The position numbers and the translations under genes are program-made. Of a stretch of 40,496 bases of DNA, positions 1,462-38,591 are shown piece by piece. This DNA comes from Cyanobacteria bacterium M_DeepCast_100m_m1_067. Lineage in GTDB: Bacteria; Cyanobacteriota; Cyanobacteriia; PCC-6307; Cyanobiaceae. Within the stretch, counting starts at the first letter, position 1; every line of letters begins with the position of its first letter. The stretch lies in contig VGQC01000004.1 in the NCBI GenBank assembly GCA_016882385.1, positions 1-40,496 on the forward strand, written 5' to 3'. The notes under the pieces were generated by a model. That model saw nothing but the letters and a program-made list of their open reading frames with translations. It made no database searches and had not been told where the DNA came from.

Positions 1462-2028
1462 ATGAAGCCCTTCGCGTGGAGTCCTGAGATCAATGCTCAG
1501 CTGATCGTGGAGCGGCAACTCTGCTTCGAAGCTGTCGTCATCGCCATCGAGGGGGGAGATCTTCTGGATGTGCTGGAGCATCCCAACCCGCAGCGTGACC
1601 CAGGCCAACGGATCCTCATCGTTCGCCTTGAGGGATCCGTGCATTTGGTACCCGTCGTGGAAACCGACGAGCATTTTTTTCTAAAAACGATCATTCCCAG
1701 CCGTAAGGCCCATCGGCAGTACACCTCTGAAAAAAACCGACCAAACCGAGCCATGAAGACGATTCCCGCCACTCCTCGCCTGGATGCAGAGGAACACCAG
1801 CTGCTCAACGATTTTGAGGCCGGTGCCCTGCGCAGCACCTCCAGCCCAGAGCTGCTGCAAGCGCTCAGTGAGTCCGCCAAGGCAACAGGCCTGAAAGACC
1901 AGCGCATCAACATCCGCATCTCCCGTGGAGACCTGCAAGCTCTCCGCACGCGTGCACTGCAGGAAGGCATCCCGTACCAAACGCTGATCAGCAGCGTGCT
2001 GCACAAATACGTCAGCGGAACGCTGTAA
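1462..2028 (+). CDS. BrnT/COG2929-like toxin fused in frame to CopG-type antitoxin
   Basis: One open frame encodes two proteins that are normally separate. Residues 1-87 (MKPFAWSPEINAQLIVERQ ... LKTIIPSRKAHRQY) match the BrnT-like RNase toxin family with its usual FLKTIIPSRKA ending. Residues 98-188 match the partner ribbon-helix-helix antitoxin, with RINIRISRGDLQAL and EGIPYQTLISSVLHKYVSG. A short linker (TSEKNRPNRA) joins them at an A7 run (1730-1736). Loss of one A would end the toxin at TGA 1754-1756, overlapping the antitoxin ATG at 1753, the usual operon layout. So this is either a real fusion, a slippage-controlled pair, or a recent indel. ATG 1462 starts at the conserved toxin N-terminus; 1420 is an alternative. 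Confidence 0.8.
   Translation: MKPFAWSPEINAQLIVERQLCFEAVVIAIEGGDLLDVLEHPNPQRDPGQRILIVRLEGSVHLVPVVETDEHFFLKTIIPSRKAHRQYTSEKNRPNRAMKTIPATPRLDAEEHQLLNDFEAGALRSTSSPELLQALSESAKATGLKDQRINIRISRGDLQALRTRALQEGIPYQTLISSVLHKYVSGTL
1753..2028 (+). CDS. Antitoxin part, possible independent start (CopG/RHH-like, 91 aa)
   Basis: An internal ATG at 1753 is exactly where the free-standing antitoxin of this toxin family normally starts (MKTIPATPRLDAEEHQLL). The C-terminal 45 residues contain the conserved core RINIRISRGDLQALRTRA and a helix ending LHKYVSGTL. In the family this is a DNA-binding and toxin-neutralising module that represses its own operon. The upstream bases give only a weak ribosome binding site (CCGAG). 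It is listed separately because translation from this ATG would give an antitoxin without the toxin moiety. Whether it is used cannot be seen from sequence. Confidence 0.55.
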   Translation: MKTIPATPRLDAEEHQLLNDFEAGALRSTSSPELLQALSESAKATGLKDQRINIRISRGDLQALRTRALQEGIPYQTLISSVLHKYVSGTL

Positions 2029-38518: not shown

Positions 38519-38591
38519 GCAGACCCAGGACTGACGCCACAATCTCAGCCCTGGCGCATGATGGCAGCGCTTGCCTGCTGCACCGGAATCG

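Follow-up and report, generated by a model that had tools for sequence, protein, structure and literature searches.

Probable recent one-base insertion in a BrnT/BrnA-like toxin-antitoxin locus that appears to be losing its toxin

Open frame and predicted domains at the locus

The stretch of DNA analysed here (the window, 40,496 nucleotides, 67% GC) comes from the genome of Cyanobacteria bacterium M_DeepCast_100m_m1_067 (genome G000), and carries a single open frame on the plus strand at 1462–2028, running from ATG at 1462 to TAA at 2026–2028 and encoding 188 amino acids. Residues 1–97 (1462–1752) make up a BrnT-like toxin domain, followed without an intervening stop by an antitoxin domain of the RHH/CopG type (1753–2028, 91 amino acids plus the stop codon). 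A run of seven A residues lies near the junction at 1730–1736 and is read in the phase GAA AAA AAC. A first-pass annotation had described the toxin and antitoxin as one protein read across this run, with the heptamer A_AAA_AAC in phase, and this description is confirmed; both domains of a BrnT-BrnA single-gene fusion are present in one open frame. The antitoxin's own ATG (1753) is still present inside the fusion and overlaps a would-be toxin stop in the shifted frame (TGA, 1754–1756), so that a run of A6 would place an antitoxin start and a toxin stop in an ATGA overlap at 1753–1756. Three A/T runs of at least 7 bases occur in the window, none of them reaching 8, and two of the three fall within the toxin-antitoxin frame, namely A7 and a T7 run inside the toxin at 1674–1680. 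Immediately upstream of the locus, and divergent from it, is a gene for a small Nif11-domain protein (PF07862, E 3.5e-11) on the minus strand at 1158–1439.

The assignment of the toxin domain draws on relatives and on structure prediction. The window toxin domain gave no match to Pfam BrnT (PF04365) at E≤10. Its ortholog in Synechococcus sp. 8F6 matches this family with an E-value of 0.0055, below the curated cut-off of 34.5 bits, and 24 of 25 relatives match it at E≤1, the best with 1.2e-7. An AlphaFold2 (AF2) model of the fusion has a pLDDT of 89.9, with both domains confidently predicted. Residues 1–82 of the model align to Brucella BrnT (3u97) with a modest Z of 7.3 and 2.5 Å over 75 residues, and the toxin domain aligns to the 7vd7 toxin with a similarly modest Z of 7.5 (VIA-align). 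These two best structural matches both come from toxin-antitoxin systems, one of them being BrnT, and the next match for the toxin domain is CdiA (5i4q, Z 5.0). A PDB sequence search with the fusion returned no match, and a search with the toxin-family profile returned 7vd7 only (E 0.005). A plain Foldseek search of the PDB gave nothing at E≤0.001, with RelE/ParE toxins as the top rows. The predicted toxin domain has a BECR/RelE-like fold as in BrnT, at these modest Z values.

The antitoxin half matches PF12441 weakly (E 6.4e-5, 24.1 bits, curated cut-off 28) and BrnA (PF14384; E 0.003, 18.3 bits, curated cut-off 26.1). Its domain adopts an RHH fold in the model, aligning to CopG (1ea4) with a Z of 5.8 over 43 residues, and we thus find an antitoxin with a C-terminal RHH domain, with profile scores below the cut-offs. 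The locus shares its gene order, toxin first and RHH antitoxin second, with the BrnT/BrnA type II toxin-antitoxin system of Brucella abortus (PF04365 toxin, RHH antitoxin), whose BrnT structure (3u97) is the one matched by the predicted toxin fold. It differs from that system in belonging to a divergent branch, in which the 8F6 copy scores below the Pfam curated cut-off and the window copy is fused, altered and without a match.

Comparison with Synechococcus sp. 8F6

Of the relatives found, Synechococcus sp. 8F6 (genome G171) is the closest, and it has A6 at the same place. The flanks of the run are almost identical in the two genomes, with identity in its immediate vicinity. The 8F6 toxin ends in ...EKTDQTEP, and the two genes are separate, with an ATGA overlap, bearing out the earlier proposal that A6 or A7 decides between an ordinary overlap and a fusion. 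T7, which lies some 50 bases upstream of the A run, is identical in 8F6. Synteny with 8F6 extends over 38.4 kb at about 92% identity. Apart from A7/A6, this alignment contains no 1-base homopolymer indel flanked by near-identical sequence, in line with the recent indel that the first-pass annotation had kept as an alternative. Every other clean gap either has a length divisible by three or falls outside any convincing gene. One of 4 bases, at 38571, was considered as a second frameshift and rejected, the spanning 8F6 frame having no Pfam match and appearing spurious.

Within its first 89 residues, the window toxin carries 5 replacements relative to 8F6; K10I, Y46D and Y59S, three of the five, fall at columns at least 97% invariant among 74 relatives. 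Codon 10 (1489–1491, plus strand) is K in 73 of the 74, the remaining one having a gap; codon 46 (1597–1599, plus strand) is Y in 72 of 74; and codon 59 (1636–1638, plus strand) is Y in all 74. Since 8F6 keeps these residues, the three replacements are most simply changes in the window lineage. Eighteen toxin columns reach this level of invariance, and all 18 are kept in 8F6, so the locus belongs to the BrnT/BrnA family by descent even though the window copy, which keeps 15 and has K10, Y46 and Y59 replaced, looks disabled. In 53 close pairs used as a control, 5 of 323 replacements fell at such columns, giving a binomial P of about 5e-5 for the 3 of 5 in the window, the pairs not being independent of one another; with purely random placement over 90 sites, P is 0.05. 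The rest of the window toxin is intact, including the KTIIPSRK motif. The antitoxin carries the change S58R at a fairly conserved site (85%). The dN/dS values against 8F6 are 0.29 for the toxin and 0.09 for the antitoxin, a difference that is weak by itself given the small number of substitutions (5 replacements in the toxin).

On this sequence evidence the window toxin is probably inactive or nearly so; that its activity has been lost, and that the organism itself carries the inserted A as a genuine mutation, are our inferences. The reading that we favour, and consider likely, is that one A was recently inserted into a chromosomal BrnT/BrnA-like type II toxin-antitoxin locus that is losing its toxin. 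In this pathway, a single A gained in a run of six in this lineage would have removed the toxin stop, bringing the toxin and antitoxin into one 188-amino-acid frame. The toxin half would meanwhile have gathered changes at positions conserved in nearly all relatives, probably leaving it inactive or nearly so, while the better conserved antitoxin half may still be produced, as the C-terminal domain of the fusion or from its own ATG. The accompanying loss of residues kept by nearly all relatives points to an ordinary toxin-antitoxin pair in decay, rather than to a new switch.

The seventh A could instead be an error made in sequencing or assembly, or reflect a minority variant picked by the assembler, the organism having A6 and two ordinary genes. 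Of all the copies found, only the one in this assembly has A7, the assembly is 83.7% complete in 162 contigs, and the arrangement that would result from A6 is exactly that of 8F6. However, a single homopolymer indel in 38.4 kb, with no pattern of such indels elsewhere in the alignment, gives no indication that the data are error-prone; the T7 run close by agrees with 8F6, and an error would leave the three lost toxin residues unexplained. We therefore regard an error as unlikely; a miscounted A run and a decaying toxin could also occur together.

The A run as a possible slippage site

The first-pass annotation had proposed that slippage on the A run could make both a fusion and a free toxin. 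The run does supply an in-phase heptamer (A_AAA_AAC), as in programmed −1 frameshifting, and A6 and A7 yield exactly the two arrangements. However, a −1 shift on the heptamer leads to PTKPSHEDD..., 26 unrelated residues ending at a stop at 1815–1817, and thus produces neither the end of the toxin nor the antitoxin. A free toxin (ending DQTEP*) requires the +1 frame, or a transcript with one A fewer; the heptamer accordingly fails as a −1 route to a free toxin. As for a downstream stimulatory RNA structure, three stretches folded no better than shuffled sequences (z of +0.5 to +1.2) in a test limited to folds free of pseudoknots. The slippery site is not conserved in relatives: a run of A at the junction is confined to the window (A7) and 8F6 (A6), and is absent from the other relatives with separate genes. 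A search of one literature library returned no paper on a frameshift switch or slippery site in a toxin-antitoxin pair.

The A7 run is also short, with no tract of 8 or more present, and with three near-invariant residues lost from the toxin, a switch would probably have no active toxin to act on. With the −1 shift giving the wrong frame, the run unconserved, the downstream RNA no more structured than shuffled sequence and three toxin residues lost, the proposed slippage switch between fusion and free toxin is not supported. We consider it very improbable that A7 serves as a functional switch, whether by phase variation through replication slippage or by transcriptional or ribosomal slippage, between a free toxin and a fusion that neutralises itself. 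It is just as hard to credit that an A6/A7 phase-variable or transcriptional-slippage switch toggles a cell lineage between the two states. Such a switch, if true, would be a new form of toxin control; the evidence, however, speaks against it.

Fusion and decay across relatives

A match to the locus was found in 46 of 400 sampled genomes of the picocyanobacterial family, and in 3 of 16 genomes of the genus. The 49 copies in the 46 family genomes comprise 21 that are bicistronic with both parts full, 21 that are degraded, some of them perhaps truncated where their contig ends, and 7 that are fused. The A7 fusion occurs in the window genome alone, with separate genes in its sister 8F6, and no relative shares it. 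Phage records and viral contigs yielded no relatives in our search, and there is thus no sign of a phage-borne locus. Plasmids hold distant relatives in 39 records, all below 60% identity.

The antitoxin tree, which has few columns and some long branches, places fusions at several separate points: the window, the SynAce01/Cruz-7E5 pair, the L022/L024 group and a Hyphomicrobiales contig. In-frame fusion has arisen several times, mostly through deletions. In the complete genome of Synechococcus sp. SynAce01 and in Cruz-7E5 (L031:3001-3519 and L032:3001-3519), toxin and antitoxin form one frame of 172 amino acids, common to two genera, in which a deletion between similar ATCATCCC and ACCATCCC stretches has removed the toxin C-terminal SRKAxxxY. 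A second, independent deletion fusion is found at L022:1264-1776, L033:343-855 and L024 (minus strand), where the toxin is cut after FFL and joined to MINSPSP...; L016 is a close, unfused relative. These fusions resemble that of the window in belonging to the same family and forming one frame, but differ in having arisen by deletions that removed the SRKAxxxY or KTIIPSRK region of the toxin C-terminus, and in keeping residues 10, 46 and 59. Since the dN/dS of the toxin part is near 0.12 both in SynAce01/Cruz-7E5 and in two further genomes (the L022/L024 group), these fusions might be maintained, unlike that of the window.

Fusions of BrnT and BrnA genes have been published previously, 28 of them prokaryotic and 4 eukaryotic (PMC11980606, Table 2). 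As in the window, these have an N-terminal BrnT and a C-terminal RHH antitoxin in one chain; the window fusion differs in being one base away from a relative with separate genes, and in having a toxin that looks disabled. A further explanation for the window is that selection has kept the fusion as a single-chain autoregulator or a tethered toxin-antitoxin pair, like these published cases. The existence of bacterial BrnT-BrnA fusions, the shared deletion fusions with low toxin-part dN/dS in the same cyanobacterial family, and an AF2 model that is confident in both domains are consistent with this explanation. However, the window fusion is shared by no relative and its toxin is altered at near-invariant sites that the deletion fusions keep, and we consider a selected fusion improbable.

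The recent insertion in a decaying locus that we favour, together with the deletion fusions, shows how toxin-antitoxin fusions can originate: two overlapping genes are joined through the change of one base, or through a short deletion that keeps the frame. Because fusions in the picocyanobacterial family sit beside many decayed copies, a fused frame alone is no evidence of a working single-chain system, and the residue-level conservation of the toxin needs to be checked in fused frames. Two much shorter in-frame remnants of about 105 amino acids, with the first 40 or so toxin residues joined to the RHH part of the antitoxin, were observed in L122 (minus strand, about 756–1058) and L123 (about 659–946). 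At L044:128-691, on a single short contig of a Hyphomicrobiales metagenome-assembled genome, toxin and antitoxin are also fused in frame; this distant fusion retains the toxin C-terminus in full.
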